Source: Candidatus Enterococcus courvalinii (lineage in GTDB: Bacteria > Bacillota > Bacilli > Lactobacillales > Enterococcaceae). Taken from it: DNA of 64,000 bases. The DNA is taken from the NCBI RefSeq assembly GCF_017315945.1, contig NZ_JAFLWI010000002.1:186001-250000 (forward strand), in the 5' to 3' direction. Shown here in pieces: positions 8,029 to 64,000 of this stretch. The notes under the pieces are model-generated. The model did not search any database, had not been told where the DNA came from, and worked only from the letters and a program-made list of their open reading frames with translations. The position numbers and the translations under genes are program-made. Position 1 is the first letter of the stretch; the number at the start of each line of letters is the position of its first letter.

Positions 8029-8727
8029 ATGAAAAAGAAAATTCAGTCTTATTTTTCACTATTAGGAAAATCGTTCCTAATGGCGGTAGCAGTTATGTCT
8101 TTCTTTGCTTTATTGCTATCAATTGGTGCGGTTTTGAAAAATCCATATTTTGTTGAGGCGATGCCTTTTTTGGGTAATCGAGCCACCCAATTTGTTGCAG
8201 AAGTTCTCAATGAGTCGGGTTTGATTGTTATTCGCTTTATGCCACTAGTTTTTGCAGTCTCAATTGCAATTGGCTTATCACCTAAAGGAGATAAAGAGTT
8301 AGCTGCTTTTTCCGCTCTTATTGGTTATTTCTTTATGATCAGCTTCTCGGCATTGACTTTAAAATTTTTTGGTCTAGCACTAGAACCAGATGTTTTGGTA
8401 GGAGATAATCACATCCTGAGTGTTGGACAAACCTTAGAGATGCGCAAAGCGATGCAGACGATGGTTTTAGGTTTGCAAACAATTGATACAGGTGTGTTAG
8501 GTGGGATCATTGTTGGGATGTCAGCATCTGCTATTACAAAACGGTTTAAAAATCAAAAACTACCAATGATTTTTAGTTTTTATCAAGGAAAGCATTTTCC
8601 ACCGATTATGACGGGTCTTGTTTTTATGTTCGTTGGTATTTTAGTGACATTTGTTTGGCCAGTTTTGGGAAATAGTATTTACGCAACAGCCGGATTCGTT
8701 GTTTCAGGTACGGGTGTTATTGGTTAA
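8029..8727 (+). pseudogene. Truncated PTS EIIC (glucose/maltose family), N-terminal half only
   Basis: 232 residues with about six hydrophobic segments resembling the first half of a glucose-superfamily EIIC. Full EIIC domains run about 350-400 residues and continue through a GLHH-type loop and a conserved ITEP motif; both are absent here. The frame ends abruptly at GFVVSGTGVIG, and no second half follows in any frame. There is no EIIB or EIIA domain. A good ribosome-binding site (ttggagg) precedes the ATG, so it may still be translated, but transport is unlikely. It is called a remnant because of its length against the family. Confidence 0.7.
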
Positions 8728-8882
8728 ATGAGTCTTCTGGGGATGCATGTTAAACGTGTGCTTACTTAAATAAATGATAAACTTTTGGTAGTAACAGGCA
8801 TATCCTGAACGTTTTCTTGTTGCTAAATTGTATTCCGTGCTACAATTTCTTTAGTAATTTTTTGATAAAGGGGTCATGAAAG

Positions 8883-46344: not shown

Positions 46345-47517
46345 TTAAAAAATTGTTGTGACATGTCTATTTTTAAATTCTAACGGAGTCAAATTTTCAA
46401 ATTGCTTAAAAATTTGAATAAAGTGGCTTTGACTAGAAAAGGTGAGCAACGTTGCAATTTCTTTATAGCTTTTATCCGTAAAAAGTAATAAGTGTTTAGC
46501 TTCAGCTACTTTTTTTTGATTAATATAGGTGTGAACTGTTTGTCCAAGTGCTTTTTTAAATTCGGCAGTGATATGAGTAGGGTGTTTTTGAACAGATTCT
46601 GCTAAATCTTTTAAGGTAATCCGCTCATAAATATGTGCATCGATATAGTTCAACAAATCTTTTACTAAAAAATTGGTTTCTGAATATGGAAAATCGTGGA
46701 TGAGTTCCATAAATAAAAGAGATGTTTCCTTGATATGCGCCATACATTCTGCTATTGTATGGATTTTTTGGAGCTTTTGGAGTAATGAATCCGATAAGCT
46801 ATATGCTTGATTAACTGGAACGCCTTCATTCACACTCACTCTTGTCAAAATAGTGATCAGTCCAGAATACTTATATTTTAAGTTCTCGACTTTATTGAGA
46901 GAAAGCTTTGAGTTATAAGTGTAGTTCACTTTTTTAAATAGCCATTCGATTTTTTCTGGTTCATTTCGGCGAACTGCTTCAACATATCTTTTCTCAAATT
47001 CAAAAGAATCAAGGAATGGGTCCTCGAATCTTCGATTGTATAAATTATTCGTCAATATCGTTTCAGTATGTGCCGTAACTCTTCGATTTCGATAGATCCA
47101 TTTATGTTGTTTCTTTGAAAGAACCTGCCCGTTTAAAAGGGAATAAAGGAGCTCAACAAATTCAACAAAAGTTGGTTGCGTTTCTTTTGAGTAATGAACG
47201 CCTGCTAAGTAATCATGATCGTGGAAAGTAAAAGTATCACTCTTGGTCCCTAAAATACCACAAGGACCAACTAAAACCTGGCAATTATTATTATCAGATA
47301 AATCACAGGTAAAGCTAGAAAAAAAGTAGTCTTGATCTTCATAAAAGAAAACTGTATGTTTCGGCGGAAGCTTTAAATAGTCTTGTTTCAGGTAATCAAT
47401 GGTCCAGTCAGAATTTTTCGGAATAATGATGTGTCCTTCGTTATTGATAACAAACAAAGGAATGAGATATTTATGATAAAGACGTTTTAAAATTAGTGAG
47501 AGGGCTTCAAATTCCAT
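46345..47517 (-). CDS. AraC-family activator of the glycoside operon
   Basis: 390 residues. The last 100 form the double HTH of AraC proteins (ITLKDLAESVQKHPTHITAEFKKALGQTVHTYINQ, then SYKEIATLLTFSSQSHFIQIFKQFENLTPLEFK). The first 280 show no cupin motif; they hold a region around NCQVLVGPCGILG that may sense a ligand. It is divergent from the eight-gene operon, with 100 bp between. A -10 without a -35 and two TTAGTAT direct repeats there fit activation by this protein. Confidence 0.83.
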   Translation of the reverse strand: MEFEALSLILKRLYHKYLIPLFVINNEGHIIIPKNSDWTIDYLKQDYLKLPPKHTVFFYEDQDYFFSSFTCDLSDNNNCQVLVGPCGILGTKSDTFTFHDHDYLAGVHYSKETQPTFVEFVELLYSLLNGQVLSKKQHKWIYRNRRVTAHTETILTNNLYNRRFEDPFLDSFEFEKRYVEAVRRNEPEKIEWLFKKVNYTYNSKLSLNKVENLKYKYSGLITILTRVSVNEGVPVNQAYSLSDSLLQKLQKIHTIAECMAHIKETSLLFMELIHDFPYSETNFLVKDLLNYIDAHIYERITLKDLAESVQKHPTHITAEFKKALGQTVHTYINQKKVAEAKHLLLFTDKSYKEIATLLTFSSQSHFIQIFKQFENLTPLEFKNRHVTTIF

Positions 47518-47551
47518 TAGATACTCCTTTTTTGATATAAAGTCATTTATT

Positions 47552-47584
47552 TTAGTATATCTTAGTATGAAATCTTTATATAAT
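47552..47584 (+). promoter_or_regulatory. Activator-dependent promoter of the glycoside operon
   Basis: A perfect TATAAT (47579-47584) has no -35 at the right distance (TATATC instead). In its place stand two direct repeats TTAGTAT (47552-47558 and 47562-47568), 10 bp apart, one helical turn, as AraC-family half-sites often are. Confidence 0.65.
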
Positions 47585-47595
47585 CAACCTGAAAT

Positions 47596-47609
47596 TTAAA
47601 ACGGTTACA
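47596..47609 (+). promoter_or_regulatory. cre site in the glycoside operon leader
   Basis: TTAAAACGGTTACA matches the CcpA cre consensus TGWAANCGNTNNCA at all but the second position. It ends at the ribosome-binding site, where CcpA would act as a roadblock in glucose. Confidence 0.6.
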
Positions 47610-47619
47610 GGAGGGTGAG

Positions 47620-49830
47620 ATGGAAGAACAAAAATTAAAAGAACTATTTGATTCATTATCGATTGACGACAAAGTTTCTCAAACGATTCAGTTGAATGGG
47701 GATCTCTTTGTTGAAAGCGGTGTAATGACTACTGGTCCAGTGAAAGATCTCGGATTTAAAAAAGAGCCGAACTTTTATGAAATTGGCTCAATTTATAACG
47801 TAAATGATTACCAAAAACTATATCAGATTCAAAAAGATGTGTTAACAAATAGCTCTCATAAAATTCCATTATTATTTATGTCAGACATTATTTATGGTTT
47901 TCGAACGATTTTTCCCATTCCATTAGCACAAGCAGGATCCTATGATTTCGATTTGATCCAGCAAGCAGCTGAAGTTTCTGCTAAAGAAAGTTACCTGAAT
48001 GGCATTCATGTTGTGTTTTCTCCAATGTTGGACTTAGTTCGTGACCCACGGTGGGGACGCGTAATGGAATCTCCAGGCGAAGACGTTTATACGAGTAAGC
48101 AATTCGCCAAAAGTGTAGTGAATGGTTATCAAGGTGAAAAGGAAATGTACTTGAAAGAAAATCATGTTGCAGCTTGCATCAAACATTTTGCTGCTTATGG
48201 AGCTCCCGAAAGTGGGCGTGAATATAACCAAGTCGAATTATCCAATCAGAAATTATTCAATGAATATTTACAACCTTATCAAGCAGCAGTTGAGGCAAAT
48301 TGTGAATTAGTTATGACAGCTTTTAATTTATTGAACGGTGTTCCAGCAACAGGGAATCAGTGGTTGAATCAGACGATTCTGAGAGAACGATTTGGTTTTA
48401 ATGGCGTATTGGTATCCGATTATGCAGCAATTGCAGAATTGGAAACACATGGTTTTGCAAAAGATTCAGAAGATGCGGCAAAAAAAGCGTTGCTTGCTGG
48501 TGTTGATTTAGATATGATGACAGCTACTTATGCCAATGGATTACCTGAATTGGTCAAGAAGTCCGAATTTGCCAAACGTTTAGATGAAGCAGTTTGGCGT
48601 ATCTTAGTCTTGAAAAATAAATTAGGCTTATTTGAAGATCCTTTCCGAGGATTAACGCAGGTGAACACGGGTGAAATTTTAACACAAGAAGCGAAAGACA
48701 TTGCTACACAATTAGTCGAAAAAAGTTGTGTGCTCCTAAAAAATAAATCTTTGCTTCCATTGAAACCAAAATCTAATCAAAAAATCGCTGTTGTAGGTCC
48801 CTATGCTGACAGCCATTTTACATTAGGTTTTTGGGCATCAGTCAGTGGGAAGTCTTCAGATGTTTTTACACTGAAAGCTGGACTGTTAGAGCAATTTGAT
48901 GAAGAACAGCTTTTTTTCACAAGAGGATTCAATCTTTATGAGAGCTATGAGCAATTTGGTCCACTGAAAGCTGGCTTTGAGCAATTGAATGGGCCAATCG
49001 AAGAGGAAAGCTTTCTGTTGCAACAAGCGATTGAACAAGCAGAAGCAGCAGACGTAATTCTTTTAACGATTGGCGAACAGTTTTTGGAAAGTGGGGAAGG
49101 AGCTTCAAAAACGAATCTTCAGTTACCAGAAAAACAAATTCGATTGATCAAGGAATTAGCAGAATTAAATAAACCAATTATCGGTTTGCTGTACACGGGT
49201 CGTCCCTTAGTGTTAACTGAGGTAGAAAAGTATTTTGATAGTTTGTTAGTAGTCTGGTTTCCAGGCGTGATGGGAGGAAAAGGAATCACAAATCTTCTGA
49301 CAGGAAGAGCAAATCCATCTGCTCGATTGACAATGTCTTTTCCAAAAAATGAAGGTCAAATTCCTGTGTATTATGCCCAAACATCTACTGGTCGACCATT
49401 AGCTGACAGCACACATAGTGAACGTTTTGTATCCAAATATATCGACGCACCAAATGAGCCGTTATTTTCATTTGGGACAGGATTAAGTTATGCGACATTT
49501 GCTGGTCACTGGCAATCAGCAAAAGGAAATGAAGAAATGATTCGTTGTTCTTATGAACTAAAAAATAGGAGTGAACATGATGGATGGATCACCCCACAAA
49601 TTTATTTGCTTAATTATTCAGCGGAAATTGTCCAGCCAATCAAACGTTTGATTGCTACCCAACATTTCTTCTTAAAAGCAAACGAGCAAAAAGTGATGAC
49701 AGTTGAAATACCGAAAACAGTGTTCACTTATTTTGATAACCAAGGAGACTTACATTTTGATGCAGGAGAGTATGTTCTTCAATTAGATATCTTAGGAAAA
49801 CAAGAAAATCTACCAATAAAAATCAGCTAA
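47620..49830 (+). CDS. Intracellular beta-glucosidase-like glycoside hydrolase, GH3
   Basis: 736 residues with the full GH3 layout: N-terminal barrel with FSPMLDLVRDPRWGR and KHFAAYGAPESGREYN, nucleophile Asp in VLVSDYAAI near residue 267, then the alpha/beta sandwich (LLTIGEQFLESGEGASKTNL) and a C-terminal fibronectin-like domain. There is no signal peptide, so it works on oligosaccharides already imported. The KHF-type motif is of the beta-glucosidase/beta-xylosidase branch and not the NagZ branch. It is first in the operon, after aggaggg. Confidence 0.87.
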   Translation: MEEQKLKELFDSLSIDDKVSQTIQLNGDLFVESGVMTTGPVKDLGFKKEPNFYEIGSIYNVNDYQKLYQIQKDVLTNSSHKIPLLFMSDIIYGFRTIFPIPLAQAGSYDFDLIQQAAEVSAKESYLNGIHVVFSPMLDLVRDPRWGRVMESPGEDVYTSKQFAKSVVNGYQGEKEMYLKENHVAACIKHFAAYGAPESGREYNQVELSNQKLFNEYLQPYQAAVEANCELVMTAFNLLNGVPATGNQWLNQTILRERFGFNGVLVSDYAAIAELETHGFAKDSEDAAKKALLAGVDLDMMTATYANGLPELVKKSEFAKRLDEAVWRILVLKNKLGLFEDPFRGLTQVNTGEILTQEAKDIATQLVEKSCVLLKNKSLLPLKPKSNQKIAVVGPYADSHFTLGFWASVSGKSSDVFTLKAGLLEQFDEEQLFFTRGFNLYESYEQFGPLKAGFEQLNGPIEEESFLLQQAIEQAEAADVILLTIGEQFLESGEGASKTNLQLPEKQIRLIKELAELNKPIIGLLYTGRPLVLTEVEKYFDSLLVVWFPGVMGGKGITNLLTGRANPSARLTMSFPKNEGQIPVYYAQTSTGRPLADSTHSERFVSKYIDAPNEPLFSFGTGLSYATFAGHWQSAKGNEEMIRCSYELKNRSEHDGWITPQIYLLNYSAEIVQPIKRLIATQHFFLKANEQKVMTVEIPKTVFTYFDNQGDLHFDAGEYVLQLDILGKQENLPIKIS

Positions 49831-49842
49831 AGGAGAATCGTT

Positions 49843-51177
49843 ATGGAAAAATTAGAAGCATTTTTAGGAAATAAATTATTGCCACTGACTCAGAAATTAC
49901 AACAAAACAAAGTATTAGGTGCCTTGATGGAAGGATTTATTCGGACAAGTCCATTAACACTGGGAATTGCACTACTGACAATCATCGGCAATTTCCCAAT
50001 TCCTGGATGGATCGATTATTTGACGAAAATCGGGATTTATCAACACGTTGAAGCAATTACCAATGGCGTGACTGGTGTTTTTTCTTTATATGTTGTTTAT
50101 AGCTTAGCGTTTTCTTATGCCAAGCAATTACAAACAAATGAACGAAATGCAGCTCTGATTTCTTTGGCTAGTTTTATCATGTTGATGCCGCAACAAATCA
50201 TGACAACAGTTACCCAAAATGGAGAGGCAACAGAACAAGCAATCGGTGCTTTACGATTAGACTATCTTGGTGGACAAGGGTTATTCATTGGAATGTTAGT
50301 TGCGTTATTAGTTACTCGATTTTATGCTTATTTATCAAATAAAAACTTGATGATCAAATTACCAGAAAGTGTTCCACCGATGGTTACGCAGTCACTTGCG
50401 CCAGTTTTTGTTGTTACGATCATCTTTACGTTGATCTTTTGTATCCGTGTAGGATTTGGTTACACTGTATCTGGCAGCATTTTCCAATTCTTTATTGATG
50501 TAATCAATGCGCCTCTGAATTCATTAGTTGCCAGTCCAATTTCAATTATTATCATCATGGAATTACTGGCTGTATTGTGGTTTTTTGGTATTCATAATGC
50601 CGTATTACAAGGACCTCTTGGCGCAATCAGCATGACCATGATTGTGGGGAATATGACTGCTTTCCAAAGTGGAGAAAAATTGCCTTACTTGTTACCATCA
50701 GTGATTTATATGGGAATGTACGCGGCGGGTTTTATGGGATTTGTTACATTTTTCATGATTCGTTGTCAATCGGCAAAAATGAAGCAACTTGGAAAACTTT
50801 CATTTATTCCATCAATCTTTAATATTACAGAACCATTGATGTTTGGTATGCCAATCATCTTGAATCCAATTTTCTTTATACCACAAGTTTTCACACAATT
50901 AATTGCAGGCTTTGTTACATGGGGGTTAACAAGTACGATTTTACCGATTTCACTTAATCCAACAATGTCCCTTTTACCATGGACTACGCCAACCTTTATT
51001 AAAATGCCGTTTGCTGGTGGGTTAAATTATACAATTTTGATGTTCATTTGTTTAGGGATTGGGATCGTGATGTGGTATCCATTTATTAAAATTGCGGATA
51101 AAAAAGAATATGAGTTGGAGCTTGCTTTAGAAAAAAATAATGTGTCAACTGAAAAGAAAGATGAAATTCAAGCTTAG
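49843..51177 (+). CDS. PTS EIIC, CelB (lactose/cellobiose) family, without EIIA or EIIB
   Basis: 444 residues with about ten membrane spans and the family signature FNITEPLMFGMPIILNP near residue 325. No EIIA or EIIB gene occurs in this operon, so either those come from another cellobiose system or the protein works as an unphosphorylated facilitator together with the kinase encoded next. It lies 12 bp after the GH3 gene behind aaaggag. The likely substrate is a beta-linked di- or oligosaccharide. Confidence 0.87.
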   Translation: MEKLEAFLGNKLLPLTQKLQQNKVLGALMEGFIRTSPLTLGIALLTIIGNFPIPGWIDYLTKIGIYQHVEAITNGVTGVFSLYVVYSLAFSYAKQLQTNERNAALISLASFIMLMPQQIMTTVTQNGEATEQAIGALRLDYLGGQGLFIGMLVALLVTRFYAYLSNKNLMIKLPESVPPMVTQSLAPVFVVTIIFTLIFCIRVGFGYTVSGSIFQFFIDVINAPLNSLVASPISIIIIMELLAVLWFFGIHNAVLQGPLGAISMTMIVGNMTAFQSGEKLPYLLPSVIYMGMYAAGFMGFVTFFMIRCQSAKMKQLGKLSFIPSIFNITEPLMFGMPIILNPIFFIPQVFTQLIAGFVTWGLTSTILPISLNPTMSLLPWTTPTFIKMPFAGGLNYTILMFICLGIGIVMWYPFIKIADKKEYELELALEKNNVSTEKKDEIQA

Positions 51178-51204
51178 ACGTGGAGGATAATGAGGAAAAA
51201 CAAA

Positions 51205-53432
<2,228 letters not shown>

Positions 53433-53454
53433 ATAATCAGTGAGAGGTGTCACT

Positions 53455-54483
53455 ATGTACACGCAAAAAATAACTTTTGATTCTCGTGCCGATACGGGAT
53501 TAACGCTTTATTTAAATGATCAGTTAGTTTCAATGGATCGAATTAAAAAGCGGCCTTTTATTTTAGTGATTCCAGGTGGAGGTTATAGTTTTTGTAGCGA
53601 AAGAGAAGCAGAACCAATTGCTTTAGCTTTCGTTGCCAAAGGATACCATGCTGGTGTTTTACGCTATCATGTGGGTGAACAACGAGATTTTGCACAGTCG
53701 TTACGAGATGGTGAACGTGCTTTAATCGAGATCAAAAAAATCGATTCATGTTTTAAAGTCGCACATGACCAAATTGCGGTGATTGGTTTTTCTGCTGGTG
53801 GTCATTTAGCGGCAGCAATGTCGACAATATTGGAGGAGAAACCTGCTTTGTGTATTTTAGGTTATCCTGCTATTTTAGCTTCCTTTGCAGAAGTGATGGA
53901 AATCGAAGCGCCTTCGTTAGATGCTTGTGTTACGCCAGAAACACCACCAACATTTTTATTTTCGACATTTGAGGATAATGTAGTGCCAATTGAGAATTCT
54001 TTACTTTATTTAGCTGCATTGGAAGAAAATGATGTCCCTTTTGAAAGTCATATTTTTCAAAAAGGATTACATGGTTTATCGTTAGCAACGAAATGGTTTG
54101 GTGCCTCACCTGAAATGATTGATGAACGGTTTGCTCGGTGGTTTGAGTTAGCTTGTGAATGGCTTGAACTGAATTGGGCCCAACCTAGAAAGTCTTTGGC
54201 GACGGAGGAAAAAGAGGAGTCACTCAAGCCTGTGTTCGAGCAATCGTTACAGCATTTAATGAAAGAAAAAGGAATGCAAGAACTACTTATCAAAGAATTT
54301 CCAAAGTTTTCCGAAAAGAGTTATTACAAAATCATTCGTAAGTTTACATTGAATCAACTGCATCGACTAGCACCTGAAATTTTTTCATCAACAAAACTGA
54401 CACTTGTTCAAGAAAAATCGAGAAAAATTTTTAGAAAGCGGGAAGAAAGCAATGAAATGTTTGATTGTACCAGAAAGCTATAA
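53455..54483 (+). CDS. Acetyl-esterase-like alpha/beta hydrolase
   Basis: 342 residues from ATG 53455 behind gagaggtg. The first 240 form an alpha/beta hydrolase like acetyl-xylan/sugar esterases: oxyanion loop IPGGGYSFCSEREAE, nucleophile Ser in IGFSAGGHLAAAM near residue 112, an acidic residue in FSTFEDNVVP and His in KGLHGLSL near 203. It is cytoplasmic. The final 100 residues (LEEK-rich, then LIKEFPKFSEKSYYKIIRKF) form an extra helical tail not usual in the family. It is probably used to remove acyl groups from imported sugars. Its end overlaps the next gene by 32 bp. Confidence 0.78.
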   Translation: MYTQKITFDSRADTGLTLYLNDQLVSMDRIKKRPFILVIPGGGYSFCSEREAEPIALAFVAKGYHAGVLRYHVGEQRDFAQSLRDGERALIEIKKIDSCFKVAHDQIAVIGFSAGGHLAAAMSTILEEKPALCILGYPAILASFAEVMEIEAPSLDACVTPETPPTFLFSTFEDNVVPIENSLLYLAALEENDVPFESHIFQKGLHGLSLATKWFGASPEMIDERFARWFELACEWLELNWAQPRKSLATEEKEESLKPVFEQSLQHLMKEKGMQELLIKEFPKFSEKSYYKIIRKFTLNQLHRLAPEIFSSTKLTLVQEKSRKIFRKREESNEMFDCTRKL

Positions 54484-56179
54484 AGCTTCGACTAAACTTA
54501 GTCAAAACCATCCTCATCAGCTAGAAAAGGTTAGTGGATTTCGTAACCAGTGCGCAGCTTTTCAAATTTTATTATATGACGGCAAAAAAAACCAGTTTAG
54601 CTTAGATCATCAATTTGCCATTCCAGATGAGATTGAGATTCCCATGTATCGTGTGTCTATTGAAACAACTTTACCTTATGAGGCGCAGTTTGTAGATTAT
54701 TATATGGGAAAAGATGAGATTGCTTACGCAGACAAACTACTTGAGGAACGTGCGCATACATTTAGTGGTGATCGTTATGCACCTATTTATGTCGAAATCC
54801 CGTTAAGTAAAGACCTAGCGAGTGGTTCTTATTCCATTGATTTTTCGATTTATCGGTCATTTATCAATCAAGAGGAACAACTAATCTTGCAAAAATCAGT
54901 TGAGCTAACAGTTTCAGATTTTGTCTTTCCTGATTGTCCGCAAGAAGAGTTCAAATTAGATCTGTGGCAACAGCCATCTAATTTAGCGCGCACTTTTCAA
55001 GTACCTTTGTGGGGGGGAGCGCACTTTGAATTAATTGACAAAATGGCAAAACTTTTATCTGAGATTGGCCAAAAATCCGTAACGGTTATTGCTGGAGAGA
55101 TTCCTTGGAAAGGTTGGTTTAATTATATTGTCAAAGATTATCCGGCTAATCTTTACGAATACTCTATGATTCCAATTCGGAAAGACCAAACGGGAAAGCT
55201 ACTTTGTGATTTTTCAATTTTGGATCGCTATCTTGCTTGTTTTGCAGATTATGGCATTAATCAAGAAATTAATCTTTTTGGACTACTAGGTGTTTGGAAC
55301 CCACCTTATTTTCCGGTCAATAAGCGATTTGAGCACACTGAAAAATTAGTTCTTCGTTATTTTGACGAAAGTACAAAGCGAATCGCATTTATTGAACAAA
55401 AAGCAGATTTCACATCCTACTTAGAACAGTTAGTCACACATTTGAAAGAACTTGGCGTTTGGGGAAAAACTTATTTCAATGCTGATGAGCCTAAGAAACA
55501 TGAGATTCATCAATTTATGACAGCTTTACAGGAACTAAAAGCGATTGAGCCAACAATTAAAACAAAAGTTGCTTTTGATAAAGAAGAAGTGTTACACAGT
55601 TTGTTACCAGTGATTGATTACCCCGTGACTTCGTTTTATTGTACCTGTCAAAATTATCAAGAACTGACAAAAAAATTCCCGGGAAAAACACAATATTATG
55701 TTTGCAATTACCCGTCAAAACCGAATACTTTTTTACACAGTCCACTATTAGAAACAAGGGTACAAGGTGTTCTTGCTTACTTTTTCAAAACAGACGGACT
55801 TTTGCGATGGGCATTGAATTGTTGGCCAACTAACGCACGCACTGACATTCGTTACAATACTGCGGCTTTACCTATTGGCGATAACTGTCTGATCTATCCT
55901 GGGAACAATGGTCATTTACTACTTTCTTTGCGCTACAAACAATTAAAACGTGGCATTGAAGATTTCTGGTTGTTAAAAGCAGCGGAAAAGCAGGATAAAA
56001 AAGCAGTCGAGAACATTTTAGAAGAATTTCTAGGTATTACTGATCCGACAAAATGGATGCTAGACAGTCACCAAGCAAATGAACATGCATTTCAGTTATC
56101 AGAACAACAGTATCAGCACTTGAGGTCTTCATTGATTCAGCAATTGACCCAAATAAGCCAAGGGAGCAGTGTACAATGA
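54452..56179 (+). CDS. DUF4091 / GH123-like glycoside hydrolase domain protein
   Basis: 575 residues from ATG 54452 (MKCLIVPESYK). The layout is a beta-sandwich N-terminus (to about 160), then a TIM-barrel-like middle (about 170-450) and the DUF4091 C-terminal part, as in GH123-related proteins. An adjacent Asp-Glu pair in TYFNADEPKKH near residue 350 matches the catalytic pair of GH123 beta-N-acetylgalactosaminidases. There is no signal peptide, so it is intracellular. The substrate could contain an N-acetylhexosamine, but catalytic competence is inferred. It overlaps both neighbours. Confidence 0.65.
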   Translation: MKCLIVPESYKASTKLSQNHPHQLEKVSGFRNQCAAFQILLYDGKKNQFSLDHQFAIPDEIEIPMYRVSIETTLPYEAQFVDYYMGKDEIAYADKLLEERAHTFSGDRYAPIYVEIPLSKDLASGSYSIDFSIYRSFINQEEQLILQKSVELTVSDFVFPDCPQEEFKLDLWQQPSNLARTFQVPLWGGAHFELIDKMAKLLSEIGQKSVTVIAGEIPWKGWFNYIVKDYPANLYEYSMIPIRKDQTGKLLCDFSILDRYLACFADYGINQEINLFGLLGVWNPPYFPVNKRFEHTEKLVLRYFDESTKRIAFIEQKADFTSYLEQLVTHLKELGVWGKTYFNADEPKKHEIHQFMTALQELKAIEPTIKTKVAFDKEEVLHSLLPVIDYPVTSFYCTCQNYQELTKKFPGKTQYYVCNYPSKPNTFLHSPLLETRVQGVLAYFFKTDGLLRWALNCWPTNARTDIRYNTAALPIGDNCLIYPGNNGHLLLSLRYKQLKRGIEDFWLLKAAEKQDKKAVENILEEFLGITDPTKWMLDSHQANEHAFQLSEQQYQHLRSSLIQQLTQISQGSSVQ

Positions 56180-58113
56180 AGAAAAAAGTTCAAGTAATTA
56201 CATTAATTAGTGCGTTGATTTTATCGGGTATCTCTTTTTCTCCAGCAGATGCAGTAACCAATGAAGATACCACAAGTAGTTCCAGTAAGCTAGTTGAAAC
56301 AACAACTGATACACAACAGACAAGTGAAACAAGTACCGATATAACAACTGATACACAGACCGATGAAACAAGCACTAACACTTCAACTACTAGTGATTCA
56401 ACGAAAAATGAGTCCACTGAGGCTACCGAATCAACTGAGTCAACTGAGTCAACTAACACTACAACGGACACATCTGCTGATTCCAATCAACCTAAAGCTG
56501 ACGATTCTGATGAACAAGCAATTCTTGATGCAATTGGCAAAGGGGATAATTTTAACTCACGCTTATATTTGAATTATTTTGGCGGGAAATTAGATACATT
56601 GTTTGCTACGACTAGTGGCAGTGGATTCGATATTGGTTTTTTGATGTTATACAGTGGGCAACTTGGCTTAGCGAAAACACAATTTGAAGTTGATTCATTA
56701 GTAATCAAGCAATTGATGTCCACCTATTTGCTTTATGATATTGCTTTTGCAAAGGACAGTCACTTTATGTCTTTATTAGCAAATAATGATGGTACGTCAC
56801 CTTCAGAATACACAGGTTTTTATCCGAATACACTACCATTAGAAGGAACTGCACTGAATAATCAGACAGGGAAACCAATGAACCTAAAGGCCTATTATGT
56901 CAATCAGAATTCTGACAAAACAGTAATTATCCATGGTGGCTTTCGCGGAAATTGGGATAATGGTGTTGTGACACCAGAATACGATAATTTTTATCAAGCA
57001 GGGTATAATTTATTGTTTGTTGATTCACGTACTACTGGTGGAAGTGACGGAGATTTCGTTACGTATGGACAATACGAGTCAGATGATGTTTTGTACTGGA
57101 TCAATCGTGAAGTTCAAACAAAACCGAATCAAGGCATATTATTGTATGGTGGATCAATGGGAGCAGCAACAATGATGTCTGTTTTGGCGAAACCCGCACC
57201 AAAAAATGTAAAAGGAATCATTGAAAACTGTGGCTTCCAATCCATTGATGAGCAGCTGCGTTATACTTATACTAACTTAGTGGCCCCTGCGTTAGAGAAT
57301 ATACCCGGTGTTGATTTAGATATTGTCGCAGACCAAGCACACGAAGATCTTTATATGCAGCTGCTAAAAGAAAATTACTTTGATCAGGAACTGCATTTAA
57401 ATACGACTGAAAATCTTCCAATCTTAGGAATGAGCCAAACAGATATTCCTAAGTTATTGATTCATGGAACGGAAGATAACGTCGTACCCGTTTCAAATGC
57501 ACAAAGTCTTTACGACGTGTCAAAAGGATACAAAGATTTAGTTTTGGTCGATGGAGCAGGACATGGTGAAGCACAAAAAGTAGACCCAGCAACCTATAAT
57601 CAACATGTTAGTGATTTTTTAGCTGTAGTCTTTAATGATCAAGTAAAAGTACGTTATGTAGATGAACAAAACGAAAGTCTTTTATCAGACAAAGAGCTCA
57701 TACTTTCTGGTTTTTATGGAGAGTCGTATCAAACAGAAGCAAAAACATTTGATCACTATGAATTAGTTTCTGTTGAAGGTCTCGAGCAAGGAACATTTGA
57801 TGAAACTATTCCTGTTGTGACCTATAAATATAAAAAAGTGTCCTCATCGACAAGTGACTCTTCCACAAACACCGATACTTCAGAAACAATGACAGATTCT
57901 TCTTCTTCACAGCCAATAGCTACATCAGATCCAAAAGATCCAAAAGATGCAAGATCTGAAGCGAAGAAAGATTCGTCAGCATCCTCAACAGAAGCTAGAC
58001 CAAAAAGTTATCCAAAAACTGGCGAAAAGAAATCAATAGTACCGCCAATTTTTGGAGGTCTGGTAGTCGTAATAGTTGGAGCCATCAATTTTTGGCGGAA
58101 AAGGAGATCATAG
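56176..58113 (+). CDS. Cell-wall-anchored alpha/beta hydrolase with MucBP domain and YPKTG anchor
   Basis: 645 residues. A signal peptide (cleavage near residue 26, PADA), then a Ser/Thr/Glu-rich stalk (about 30-110), an alpha/beta hydrolase (Ser nucleophile in LYGGSMGAATMM near 336, Asp in HGTEDNVVP near 435, His in GAGHGEAQ), a MucBP domain (VKVRYVDEQNESLLSDKELI, about 490-555) and a Ser-rich linker. The C-terminus is a sortase signal: YPKTGE, hydrophobic segment, RKRRS. YPKTG replaces the usual LPxTG. It probably removes ester groups from substrates at the cell surface. It overlaps the previous gene (ATGA). Confidence 0.83.
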   Translation: MKKKVQVITLISALILSGISFSPADAVTNEDTTSSSSKLVETTTDTQQTSETSTDITTDTQTDETSTNTSTTSDSTKNESTEATESTESTESTNTTTDTSADSNQPKADDSDEQAILDAIGKGDNFNSRLYLNYFGGKLDTLFATTSGSGFDIGFLMLYSGQLGLAKTQFEVDSLVIKQLMSTYLLYDIAFAKDSHFMSLLANNDGTSPSEYTGFYPNTLPLEGTALNNQTGKPMNLKAYYVNQNSDKTVIIHGGFRGNWDNGVVTPEYDNFYQAGYNLLFVDSRTTGGSDGDFVTYGQYESDDVLYWINREVQTKPNQGILLYGGSMGAATMMSVLAKPAPKNVKGIIENCGFQSIDEQLRYTYTNLVAPALENIPGVDLDIVADQAHEDLYMQLLKENYFDQELHLNTTENLPILGMSQTDIPKLLIHGTEDNVVPVSNAQSLYDVSKGYKDLVLVDGAGHGEAQKVDPATYNQHVSDFLAVVFNDQVKVRYVDEQNESLLSDKELILSGFYGESYQTEAKTFDHYELVSVEGLEQGTFDETIPVVTYKYKKVSSSTSDSSTNTDTSETMTDSSSSQPIATSDPKDPKDARSEAKKDSSASSTEARPKSYPKTGEKKSIVPPIFGGLVVVIVGAINFWRKRRS

Positions 58114-59115
58114 ATGAAATGGTTGAGACGAATTTTATTCAGCATTTTAATACTTGTAGGGATAGTTTTTCTCGGAAGTTGGCTAACAGTTCAATTAACA
58201 CCTAATCCAGTTAGCCATTTCGTTCGTAAGCAATTTGATACCAGTCAGCAAGCACAAGTTTATCCACGACCAGATTTTTATACGCATGATGCACAAGAAG
58301 TATCCATTGAGAAGGATGTGAGCTATCAATCAACGGGAAAAAATAATCTCATGGATATCTATATCCCTAAAAATCAACCTAAAAAATTGCCTATTTTATT
58401 TTGGGTTCATGGTGGTGCCTATGTTGGTGGAGACAAAAAGGATTGTGAAGATTACTTAACAATGCTAAGTGCAGAAACAAAAACGGTCATAGTCAATCTG
58501 AACTATGGACTTGCTCCAGAAGCAAAATACCCGACACCTGTCAGACAATTAAACGAAGCGATAGCAACAATCAAAGAACGTACGATTGCTAACATCGACT
58601 GGGAACAGGTTTTATTGGGTGGTGACTCAGCGGGCGCACAAATTGCTAGTGAATATTTAATTCGTTTATCTAATTCGAATTTGAAAGAAATTAATCAATT
58701 AACGCCTGCATTAAAAAGTACGCAAGTGAAGAAATTCATTTCGCTTTCTGGCTTACTTGCGCCAGATAAATTTGCAGAAATCGATGACCCCATCTCAAGT
58801 TTCTTATTTAAGCAAAGTGGTTGGGCATACTTTGACCAAAAAGATTTTGCGAGTGACACAGATATCAAAGATTTAGCATTAGCAAATCATGCCAATGATT
58901 TATCACAGGCGTTTTTCTTTACAGATGGAAATGAGAATACATTTACGAAACAAATGGAAACTACTGTAAAATCGTTAGAAAAAGCAGAATTATCTGTCAC
59001 AGAAATTTCGTATAAAAAGCCAACTCTGGGACATGAATATCAATTTGATTTTAGTAAACCAGAAGCAGAAAAAACATTTGATGCACTGGTTCGTTTTGTA
59101 AATGATCAAAGTTAG
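58114..59115 (+). CDS. Membrane-tethered esterase/lipase (HSL family)
   Basis: 333 residues. An N-terminal membrane helix (ILFSILILVGIVFLGSWL, residues 8-25) tethers an outward-facing alpha/beta hydrolase of the hormone-sensitive-lipase family: HGGAYVGG oxyanion motif near residue 108, GDSAGAQIA nucleophile motif near 170, and His in TLGHEYQFD near 307. It follows the anchored hydrolase with no gap (TAGATG), the last gene of the operon. A second extracytoplasmic esterase suggests a heavily acylated substrate. Confidence 0.8.
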   Translation: MKWLRRILFSILILVGIVFLGSWLTVQLTPNPVSHFVRKQFDTSQQAQVYPRPDFYTHDAQEVSIEKDVSYQSTGKNNLMDIYIPKNQPKKLPILFWVHGGAYVGGDKKDCEDYLTMLSAETKTVIVNLNYGLAPEAKYPTPVRQLNEAIATIKERTIANIDWEQVLLGGDSAGAQIASEYLIRLSNSNLKEINQLTPALKSTQVKKFISLSGLLAPDKFAEIDDPISSFLFKQSGWAYFDQKDFASDTDIKDLALANHANDLSQAFFFTDGNENTFTKQMETTVKSLEKAELSVTEISYKKPTLGHEYQFDFSKPEAEKTFDALVRFVNDQS

Positions 59116-59120
59116 TGGAG

Positions 59121-59154
59121 AAAGACTGGAACATATTTTTGTTTCAGTCTTTTT
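59121..59154 (+). terminator. Terminator of the glycoside operon
   Basis: AAAGACTGGAAC and GTTTCAGTCTTT arms (one mismatch) followed by TT. It is the first clear terminator after 47.6 kb, so the eight genes probably form one transcript. Confidence 0.8.
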
Positions 59155-61979: not shown

Positions 61980-63404
61980 TTAAGGAACCAGCAAATCAAG
62001 ATCGTAATCAAATCCATTTTCGTCACTTAGTTTTTTATAAAATTCACCACTTTTTTTGATTGTTCTTTTTTGGGTAGGTAAATCTAAGGAAACTAATCCG
62101 TAACGATTTTTGTAGGAATTGATCCATGACCAACAGTCAATGAACGTCCATAGATGATACCCCTTGATGTTGCAGCCGTCATTAATTGCTTTCCAAAGAT
62201 AAGCTAAGTGATCTTGAATAAATTCAATGCGGTACTCATCAATTACTTGCCCAGTTTCATCCATAAATCGTTCCTCATTGGCAACCCCCATGCCGTTTTC
62301 GGAGATGAATGCCTCAATGTTTCCATAGTTGTTCTTGATATCCATACATAAATCATAGATTCCTTTTTCATAAATTTCCCAACCACGATATTCATTCATA
62401 CGACGTCCGGGCATTACATGATTCTCAAAGAACCATTCAGGTAAGAAAGGGCCTTCTGGATTGATTGCTGTTAGGCGAGCTTTTACTCTGCGAGGTTCAT
62501 AGTAGTTCAACCCTAAAATTTGGGCAGTATTCTCTTGAATCGTCGCTAGATCTTCTTGAGTAAAGTCGAGTGGCAACTGGTCATATTTGCTTAAAAGTTC
62601 TACTAATTTTGGTGGAAAGTTTCCTTTTACCATTGGATCTAAGAAACTTCGTGTGTAAAATAAGTCTGCAATCTCTGCGGCTTTGACATCAGCAAGATTC
62701 TGACTTCGTGGGAAGGTTGGGCTAAGATTTAAAATGACACCAATCTTGCTTGATAACTTGTATGTTTTAAAAACTTCGATTGCTTTTGCATGTGCTAAGA
62801 TTGTAAAGAATGCAGCTTGACTTCCACGTTTAAAGTCAACCAAATTGGGGTAATGAAAGTCTTCTAAATAAGAGCCTAGAATGGGCCCAAGTGGTTCGTT
62901 AAACGTAAACCAATGAAAGACTAAATCACCAAATTCTTCAAAACACGTTTTTGCAAAATGAACGTAGGCATCAACGACATCTCGTGATTCCCAACCACCT
63001 TGGTCTTGTAACTTAGCAGGCATATCAAAATGATAAAGATTAGCAAAAACTTTTATTCCGTTTTTATTCATTTCAGTAAATAAATCACGATAGAAAGCAA
63101 TTGCTTGTGGATTAACTTCGCCTACGCCATCTTGTGGAAACATTCTTGCCCAAGAGATAGATACTCGAAAAGAATTGTGTCCGGTTTGTTTCATCAATTG
63201 AACATCTTCTTTGTAACGATGGATATGATCGGTTGTGATTTCTGAACTGATTCTTTGGTAGAAGCGATTGGGTTGTTCTTTGTACCAACGTTCCCAAACT
63301 GTTTCAGCTTTTCCTGTTTCGCCACGACCTTCAGCTTGCTCAGCAGACCATGCAGATCCCCACCAAAAGTTTTCTGGAAATGATAATTTTTTGATTGTAC
63401 TCAT
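61980..63404 (-). CDS. GH1 phospho-beta-glycosidase-type enzyme
   Basis: 474 residues, GH1 barrel: acid/base Glu in FTFNEPLGP near residue 170, nucleophile Glu in FISENGMG near 370. Ser stands where non-phospho enzymes have a sugar-binding Glu (CWSWINSYKNRYGLV), which points to 6-phospho substrates. The Lys expected two places before the Tyr is Asn here, with a Lys shifted by one, so the specificity is less sure than for the GH1 at 52 kb. It starts after aaggaggtc and is divergent from a GntR regulator that probably controls it. Confidence 0.82.
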   Translation of the reverse strand: MSTIKKLSFPENFWWGSAWSAEQAEGRGETGKAETVWERWYKEQPNRFYQRISSEITTDHIHRYKEDVQLMKQTGHNSFRVSISWARMFPQDGVGEVNPQAIAFYRDLFTEMNKNGIKVFANLYHFDMPAKLQDQGGWESRDVVDAYVHFAKTCFEEFGDLVFHWFTFNEPLGPILGSYLEDFHYPNLVDFKRGSQAAFFTILAHAKAIEVFKTYKLSSKIGVILNLSPTFPRSQNLADVKAAEIADLFYTRSFLDPMVKGNFPPKLVELLSKYDQLPLDFTQEDLATIQENTAQILGLNYYEPRRVKARLTAINPEGPFLPEWFFENHVMPGRRMNEYRGWEIYEKGIYDLCMDIKNNYGNIEAFISENGMGVANEERFMDETGQVIDEYRIEFIQDHLAYLWKAINDGCNIKGYHLWTFIDCWSWINSYKNRYGLVSLDLPTQKRTIKKSGEFYKKLSDENGFDYDLDLLVP

Positions 63405-63578
63405 TGATAGACCTCCTTCAAATTCACTTCAATCATAACATCGCTTACAAATAAAATAAATACCTTTTTCTAAAATTATATATCTTTCTTAAGAGAGCTT
63501 GTTTTTTTTAGTTAAAAACAGCCAAAAGTATGGTAAAGTATAGAAGAAACTATTGTTTTAAGTGGAAGGAGGATACGT

Positions 63579-64000
63579 ATGAAACAAATTCCAAAATATA
63601 TGGAAATTTATTTAGATGTTAAACGGAAAATCATGGATGATAGGTATCAGGTTGGCGCCAAATTACCGACTGGTGATCAATTAGCAGAAGAATATGGAAC
63701 AAGCAAATTAACTGTAAAAAAAGGGATTGATTTATTAGTATCTGAGGGTGTTTTGCGAACACGTAGTGGATTTGGTACAGAAGTCCTGCGTAAACCAATT
63801 GATAATTCAAAAGTTTTTGGTCCAAACGAAGGCTTACTAAGCACGGTGGGGGAAGAACATGTGGACTCTGAGATCCATACTTTTTCGATTGAACTTCCTT
63901 CAAAAGAGGTAGCAGAAATGTTGCAAATCAGCGAGAAAGATTACATTTACAATATTATCCGAAGCCGATTCATAGACCACCAACCTTATTCCATTGAACA
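63579..64000 (+). CDS. GntR-family regulator (3' end outside the window)
   Basis: About 140 residues are visible from ATG 63579, behind aaggagga. The N-terminal winged helix (YLDVKRKIMDDRYQVGAKLPTGDQLAEEYGTSKLTVKKGIDLLVSEGVL) is GntR type, and the start of a UTRA ligand domain follows (SFDIEL-like DSEIHTFSIELPS, RSRFIDHQPYSIE). UTRA regulators of this HutC/TreR branch sense sugar phosphates. It faces the GH1 gene, so it probably represses a phospho-beta-glycoside operon. Confidence 0.88.
   Translation, partial: MKQIPKYMEIYLDVKRKIMDDRYQVGAKLPTGDQLAEEYGTSKLTVKKGIDLLVSEGVLRTRSGFGTEVLRKPIDNSKVFGPNEGLLSTVGEEHVDSEIHTFSIELPSKEVAEMLQISEKDYIYNIIRSRFIDHQPYSIE

Follow-up and report, generated by a model that had tools for sequence, protein, structure and literature searches.

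A conserved operon of lactic acid bacteria that pairs a lone PTS permease with GH3, GH1 and GH123 glycosidases: a probable phosphotransferase route for beta-linked glycosides

How would a cell import and degrade a glycoside with an operon that encodes a permease (EIIC) of the phosphoenolpyruvate (PEP)-dependent phosphotransferase system (PTS), three glycosidases, a sugar kinase and three esterase-type proteins, with no match to the phosphoryl-transfer proteins EIIA and EIIB? This question is raised by positions 46345 to 59115 of a stretch of 64,000 nucleotides from Candidatus Enterococcus courvalinii (contig NZ_JAFLWI010000002.1, positions 186,001 to 250,000; hereafter the window), which lies in a 2.6 Mb, Enterococcus-like genome. 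The answer favored here, with a probability of roughly 0.7, is that the locus is a PTS operon that AraC activates and CcpA probably represses, that serves small beta-linked glycosides, probably acylated ones, and that receives EIIA and EIIB in trans; it is a variant of known operons that combine a PTS permease with a phospho-glycosidase. All nine predicted genes, a regulator and an eight-gene operon, are present, with agreeing Pfam and NCBIfam matches:

46345..47517, minus strand: AraC-family regulator, divergent from the operon (HTH_18, 5.6e-17)
47620..49830, plus strand: glycoside hydrolase family 3 (GH3) protein, beta-glucosidase-type, probably cytoplasmic (PF00933, PF01915; best solved relative Lin1840, 3e-163)
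49843..51177, plus strand: PTS EIIC of the lactose/cellobiose/chitobiose family (TIGR00410, 258.7 bits, cut-off 236)
51190..52086, plus strand: ROK-family sugar kinase lacking the zinc motif (PF00480; best solved relatives 2gup and 4htl)
52083..53432, plus strand: GH1 6-phospho-beta-glycosidase (PF00232, 2.2e-143; solved relatives 8b80/4ze4; S-x6-K-x-Y at residue 405)
53440..54483, plus strand: Est1, cytoplasmic alpha/beta-hydrolase, BD-FAE/lp_1002 arylesterase-like and under the curated cut-off (GFSAG motif)
54452..56179, plus strand: GH123 (DUF4091, PF13320) protein, cytoplasmic glycosidase (ATG at 54452; PF13320, 3.3e-65)
56176..58113, plus strand: surface alpha/beta-hydrolase (MucBP domain, hydrophobic N-terminus, YPKTG sortase-type tail)
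58114..59115, plus strand: Est3, HSL/BD-FAE-type esterase (N-terminal membrane segment)

The genes had been described as tightly coupled with gaps of up to about 27 bp; the coupling holds, and the actual spacing is tighter, from -32 to +12 bp on the chosen starts. The GH3, GH1, Est1 and GH123 proteins show no signal peptide in a simple hydropathy check. A scan for terminators 3′ of the operon found none. The end of Est1 (window 54350-54483) overlaps the GH123 start by 32 bp and gives a protein of 347 residues versus 330 in the closest relative, and this tail may be out of frame.

A search for the same gene order across genomes, which the original prediction had called for, returned 14 complete operons, each genome counted once, together with one cut copy (L010; loci are cited by L numbers). 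Eleven loci came from a protein search with one genome per species, and whole-genome searches added L070, L072 and L100; L069, L071, L073-L076, L101 and L102 come from the genomes of L010-L012, L014, L015 and L017-L019 and were not counted twice. The order AraC / GH3-EIIC-ROK-GH1-(esterase)-GH123 recurs in Enterococcus, Lactococcus formosensis, Pediococcus acidilactici and Desemzia, and GH3, EIIC, ROK, GH1 and GH123 stand in that order in all 14 complete operons. The closest relative among the loci retrieved is L009 from Enterococcus sp. DIV0660C, with 88-99% protein identity across the nine genes, and the best-conserved parts are EIIC and GH1, at 78% identity or more. An AraC gene accompanies 13 of the 14, namely the window's and 12 relatives of 39-95% identity (none was seen beside L016, which belongs to Pediococcus acidilactici DSM 20284), and Est1 relatives occur in 12 of the 14 (none was seen in L011 or L019). 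In L013 an esterase-like gene stands between AraC and GH3, in L018 the GH123 frame is short (502 residues), and in L009 (3174-5384) and L017 (3204-5410) GH3 is split into two frames, through decay or sequencing error. Matches to GH123 at E <= 1e-40 were found in only 13 of 395 genomes of an order-wide sample, so the system is sparse. Plasmid-borne copies were also considered and rejected, as the GH123-type proteins on 12 plasmid records were all below 60% identity.

The EIIC gene carries the central question. Its product exceeds the family cut-off, its only solved relative found is ChbC (3qnq, 6.7e-52), and residues H251 and E330 are invariant in all 14 aligned sequences, a relative of 49% identity included; their ChbC equivalents are presumed to matter for sugar binding. 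No EIIA or EIIB match was found in the window operon, nor, for 12 of the other 13 complete operons, in the stretches retrieved. From this absence in the window the original prediction had proposed import without PTS phosphorylation, followed by ATP-dependent phosphorylation: EIIC would act as a phosphorylation-free channel, the BglK-like ROK kinase would phosphorylate the imported glycoside and GH1 would then cut it. The presence of ROK in all 14 operons and the name of the second-best solved ROK relative, beta-glucoside kinase, also speak for this model. The thirteenth operon, L100, from another genus of the family, has EIIB and EIIA genes between GH1 and Est1 (PF02302, 76.6 bits; PF02255, 112.9 bits), and its EIIC and GH1 are 95% and 87% identical to those of the window; such a linked pair in a relative is what the original prediction had named as a refutation of its model. 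Lac-type EIIA was also encoded, in 1 to 6 copies, by all 14 genomes examined that have the operon, a cut copy or the minimal pair (described below).

Lone permeases are, moreover, the norm in the genome that holds the window, which has 34 EIIC matches, 2 lac-type EIIA genes, both in EIIB-EIIA-EIIC sets, and 17 PF02302-type EIIB matches. Twenty of the 34 EIIC loci were compared, and 12 belong to the family of the window EIIC (13 with the window's own). With distances taken between match starts, two of these 13 family members have EIIA and EIIB adjacent, one has EIIB alone and ten have neither within 5 kb, which leaves 11 of 13 lacking a linked EIIA. At L104:7188-13642, a lone EIIC (49% identity) directly precedes an N-terminal piece of a MupG-type 6-phospho-N-acetylmuramidase and was counted for a PTS route; ROK pieces and a GH1 gene (44%) lie further on, in what is possibly a PTS aminosugar operon. 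A lone EIIC thus need not mean a non-PTS route. As judged from these gene sets, the conserved EIIC residues, the phospho-sugar motif of GH1 and the precedent of L. lactis (both described below), the window EIIC most likely uses EIIA and EIIB encoded elsewhere in the cell, PEP-dependent phosphorylation is preferred, and phosphorylation-free import is unlikely.

The kinase score also counts against the channel model. The ROK protein has 298 residues with the kinase signatures DIGGT (residue 12) and ENDA, and, as predicted, the zinc motif C-x-C-G-x2-G-C is not present. Its predicted likeness to BglK is only loose, at 78.5 bits versus the NF042998 cut-off of 550; it falls far under the curated cut-offs for BglK, NanK and glucokinase and reaches no named-kinase cut-off. 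The best solved relatives, 2gup and 4htl, also have no cysteines in the aligned zinc-motif stretch, so the missing motif is no mark of a disaccharide kinase. No helix-turn-helix model matched the protein, and its start lies too near DIGGT for a repressor-type domain. The chances of the channel and ROK model as a whole are judged to be slim.

Upstream of GH3, three further elements are shared with relatives:

47528..47561, plus strand: putative AraC operator made of two direct half-sites (47528-47541, 47548-47561) with a 20-bp spacing; 17 nt separate its end from the -10 box
47579..47584, plus strand: -10 box TATAAT, from the upstream alignment of relatives
47595..47609, plus strand: cre-like site TTTAAAACGGTTACA, with one mismatch to the consensus used and a similar block upstream in relatives

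The promoter layout is conserved among the operons as aligned: the half-site spacing is 20 bp in 13 of 14 upstream regions, the gap to TATAAT is 17 nt in 12 of 14, and the cre-like block follows operator and -10 box. As the operator consensus was drawn by eye from the same upstream sequences, the parts that count as tests are the constant spacing and the single occurrence in the genome; the combined operator and -10 box pattern has a single match in the whole of its own genome at up to 3 mismatches, with 0 for a reversed-pattern control. Because of this uniqueness, the AraC-family protein seems dedicated to the operon. It would probably be an activator. TATAAT at 47579 is absent from the matches of a sigma-70 consensus scan, which would be expected of a promoter where AraC stands in for a -35 box. 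The GH3 start assigned mechanically in L014, L015 and L019 comes before the -10 box, which puts the true start further downstream. The predicted catabolite-responsive element (cre) was weak on the window alone, where the only exact match lies elsewhere than the operon and one-mismatch matches number 26 versus 23 expected. Comparison among the 14 operons bore it out: a pattern search placed the block upstream of 13, beyond the -10 box wherever one was seen, and for L100 it is visible by eye in the same alignment. Control by CcpA is probable.

The predicted combination of a plain-type glycosidase (GH3), a phospho-type glycosidase (GH1), esterase-type enzymes and a sugar kinase is likewise supported, as a probably catabolite-controlled operon for beta-glycosides. 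The GH1 protein has both catalytic glutamates (TINEQ at 152, ITENG at 349) and S405..Y414 in the pattern S-x6-K-x-Y, which is taken to be the phosphate-binding motif of 6-phospho-beta-glycosidases; its best solved matches, 8b80 and 4ze4, are named 'putative 6-phospho-beta-galactobiosidase'. The VSDY motif of GH3 at 265 aligns with a position of Lin1840 at which the 4zo6 sequence has Ala. These two solved groups, Lin1840 GH3 (4zoa) and the 6-phospho-beta-galactobiosidase GH1, are the closest to the operon's GH3 and GH1.

Two outward-facing esterases had been predicted as evidence for a complex, acylated glycan. The proteins themselves are confirmed, with GGSMG and GDSAG motifs, hydrophobic N-termini and, in the first, the sortase-type tail, but the argument drawn from them is weakened: the MucBP surface esterase is found in 3 of 14 operons (window, L009, L100) and Est3 is encoded beyond GH123 in 4 of the 14 (window, L009, L100, L016), so both are accessories of a few lineages. 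At L100:3170-5783 the surface esterase lacks that tail, and the next gene is transposase-like, with a weak match to an integrase core; in L072 a cut relative of the surface esterase (69%) is found on the upstream side of AraC.

Est1 is similar to models of the lp_1002 arylesterase and of acetylxylan esterase, at scores under their cut-offs, and together with the Lin1840-like GH3 and the strong conservation of EIIC and GH1 this would fit an operon for acylated plant glucosides, for example phenolic glucosides, in which GH123 would have a minor or side activity. Such a diet is judged somewhat unlikely, as three minimal loci (L077, L103 and L078) place EIIC (50-53%) directly before GH123 (32-33%), with no GH3, GH1 or esterase match seen. 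A divergent AraC-type gene (31% over part) accompanies L077, the EIIC and AraC region of L078 is read as pieces, the L103 contig stops at EIIC, and a ROK gene follows in L077 and L103. Since only EIIC and GH123 are kept there from the permease, glycosidase and esterase parts of the set, these two look like the core of the system, and the other enzymes would be additions. Beyond the minimal pair, L077:895-3306 holds a GH38-type alpha-mannosidase and a further ROK gene.

This places weight on GH123. Alignment with BvGH123, with no numbering shift, equates D345/E346 with D361/E362, presumably the catalytic pair, W172 with W206, W219 with W253, W282 with W306 and W222 with Q256; BvGH123 W482 lies outside the stretch mapped. 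The predicted DUF4091 domain is present, and its label is corrected to GH123, a family in which the available text of PMC11087588 describes solved and assayed beta-N-acetylgalactosaminidases (BvGH123, CpNga123, NgaP, NgaLy) and hydrogen bonds from BvGH123 W253 and Q256 to an N-acetylgalactosamine (GalNAc) analogue. Of the nine family-wide residues given in that text, eight are kept by position (D94, Y416, G449, W453, Y482 and R494 among them) and the W115 equivalent is Tyr113, as placed by alignment with relatives rather than with NgaLy itself (PMC11087588). An AlphaFold model (predicted local distance difference test score, pLDDT, 75; predicted template modeling score 0.81) had GH123-family structures for all of its first 22 fold-search matches.

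All 16 aligned PTS-linked proteins (13 of the full type, three minimal) carry Trp at position 222, with L015 (near-identical to L014) and L018 (short frame) left out and with L010, whose contig shows only Est1-GH123, counted as full. This position is Gln in all four other Bacillota relatives having the loop, none of which stands beside such an EIIC. For three of these (L079, L080, L107), ABC-type binding proteins and permeases are encoded nearby, L080 also having a galactitol-type EIIC and an EIIB about 5 kb away, and the fourth (L106) was compared for neighbors with the window's own gene set only. Model stretch 214-236, which holds W222, has pLDDT below 50, so no geometric conclusion is drawn. 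PF13320 occurs in 11 of 398 genomes of a phylum-wide sample; apart from that of the window there are 11 loci, of which two are L106 and L107 again, and in the other nine the 219-222 stretch does not align in full, so that these nine leave the Gln/Trp contrast as it was. A phylum-wide search with the GH123 alignment reached E <= 1e-60 in 3 of 398 genomes; the window's own is among them, and the other two have no EIIC match in the stretches retrieved.

What GH123 would cut can be read in two ways. With a chance judged a little short of even, it is an ordinary beta-N-acetylgalactosaminidase on plain substrates, in an operon for host or mucin beta-GalNAc glycans whose GalNAc would pass to an AgaS/LacD-type route elsewhere in the genome. 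The fold, the DE motif, the retained family residues and the MucBP surface esterase agree with this, as do an agaS-like gene (below cut-off), lacD (above cut-off) and a mannose-type PTS locus in the genome. At L108:7034-12642 these genes lie in one locus with a GntR gene, probably for an amino sugar. Opposed to it are the Trp at the Gln256 position in all PTS-linked proteins, the rarity of the MucBP esterase, and AgaS-like genes (E <= 1e-100) that do not track the operon, being found in 9 of 12 family genomes with it versus 59 of 93 lacking it, which weakens the case for a GalNAc diet. In these counts G379 (Est1-GH123 contig end only) was taken as having the operon and G264 (EIIC 43%) as lacking it; enrichment is not clear, and none of the 105 genomes has an AgaS match at the curated cut-off.

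The other reading is that the EIIC-linked proteins form a new PTS branch of GH123, a 6-phospho-beta-N-acetylhexosaminidase that would cut the disaccharide phosphate delivered by its partner permease, with the pocket remodeled from Gln256 to Trp, the minimal EIIC-GH123 loci ancestral and GH3, ROK, GH1 and the esterases added later. This fuller proposal is considered doubtful, while a phosphorylated N-acetylhexosaminide is a possible substrate. The link between the PTS and GH123 is the part that looks new and is worth testing, since it may mark a branch of cytoplasmic GH123 enzymes tied to a PTS permease and changed at a sugar-binding residue; should the enzyme need the 6-phosphate, GH123 would gain an activity that was not found described.

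In the preferred PTS scheme, outer esterases would, in a few lineages, deacylate the glycoside before EIIC carries it across the membrane, and an EIIA/EIIB pair encoded elsewhere (C8 or C18), or built into the operon in one sister lineage, would phosphorylate the non-reducing sugar at O6 during import. In the cytoplasm, Est1 may then remove acyl groups, GH1 would cut phosphorylated beta-glucosides or galactosides and GH123 beta-N-acetylhexosaminides, GH3 could trim plain beta-glucosides exposed afterwards, and the ROK kinase would phosphorylate the free sugar left by each cut.

Several points count against this scheme. EIIA and EIIB are linked in only one of the 14 complete operons, which leaves supply in trans as an inference for the remaining 13. 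L044, one of the ten lone EIICs of the genome, is 330 bp away from the edge of its contig, and an EIIB linked to it could lie beyond that edge. GH3 has no place in the scheme unless plain beta-glucosides arise in the cell, and a plain beta-glucosidase would suit a non-PTS route too; the ROK kinase could in principle phosphorylate an intact glycoside. For GH123, the 16 PTS-linked proteins may be one clade, in which case shared descent alone could explain the Trp. A search for a phosphate-binding basic residue invariant in the 16 and absent from the four others found none, which tells against the 6-phospho reading as well.

Known systems offer partial parallels. MupG is assumed to belong to the same family as ChbE, GH170. 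As given in the available text, the MurP/MupG system of S. aureus (PMC6262408) imports its substrate through a PTS permease and then uses a cytoplasmic phospho-specific glycosidase, and the same route is proposed by the authors for ChbC/ChbE of L. paracasei (PMC12791066), where the glycosidase is of GH170 and not, as here, GH123. The available text on L. lactis PTS-Cel-Lac (PMC4286628) describes an EIIC, CelB, that works with PtcA/PtcB encoded in a different region; bglS, the gene for the phospho-beta-glycosidase, is in the celB region, and there is CcpA control and a dedicated activator. The window operon would share this arrangement, but the L. lactis activator, ClaR, is RpiR-type, and that text mentions no GH3, ROK, esterases or GH123 (PMC4286628). 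The PTS-linked GH123 proteins resemble BvGH123-type enzymes in fold, DE motif and the three tryptophan equivalents, and differ in Trp for Gln256 and in the adjacent EIIC. The claim that no operon of this combination has been described stands for the titles and abstract starts listed from the open-licence PMC literature, and in the parts available of the literature on lmo2763-2765 and on shared EIIA/EIIB in Enterococcus no description of the operon was found. Eight GH123 genes were counted in an E. faecium strain, with no gene order given in the available text (PMC12844089). Identity with the E. faecium bepA locus was dropped, as a table in PMC10913372 gives fruA as an alias of bepA; the two are set apart by description, not by sequence.

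Further PTS-related genes were seen near two operons and in and just past the window itself. Downstream of the operon, L018:12314-14327 (same genome as L075) holds a MupG-type gene and a ROK gene, and L019:12729-15432 an EIIC (28%) followed by a MupG-type gene. Window positions 8065-8745 (G000:C12:194065-194745) hold an EIIC-family match with an internal stop, a broken PTS gene, and window positions 61980-63998 and beyond hold another GH1 gene and an apparent GntR-type regulator, followed past the window end, at C12:250548, by another EIIC that has no linked EIIA/EIIB.

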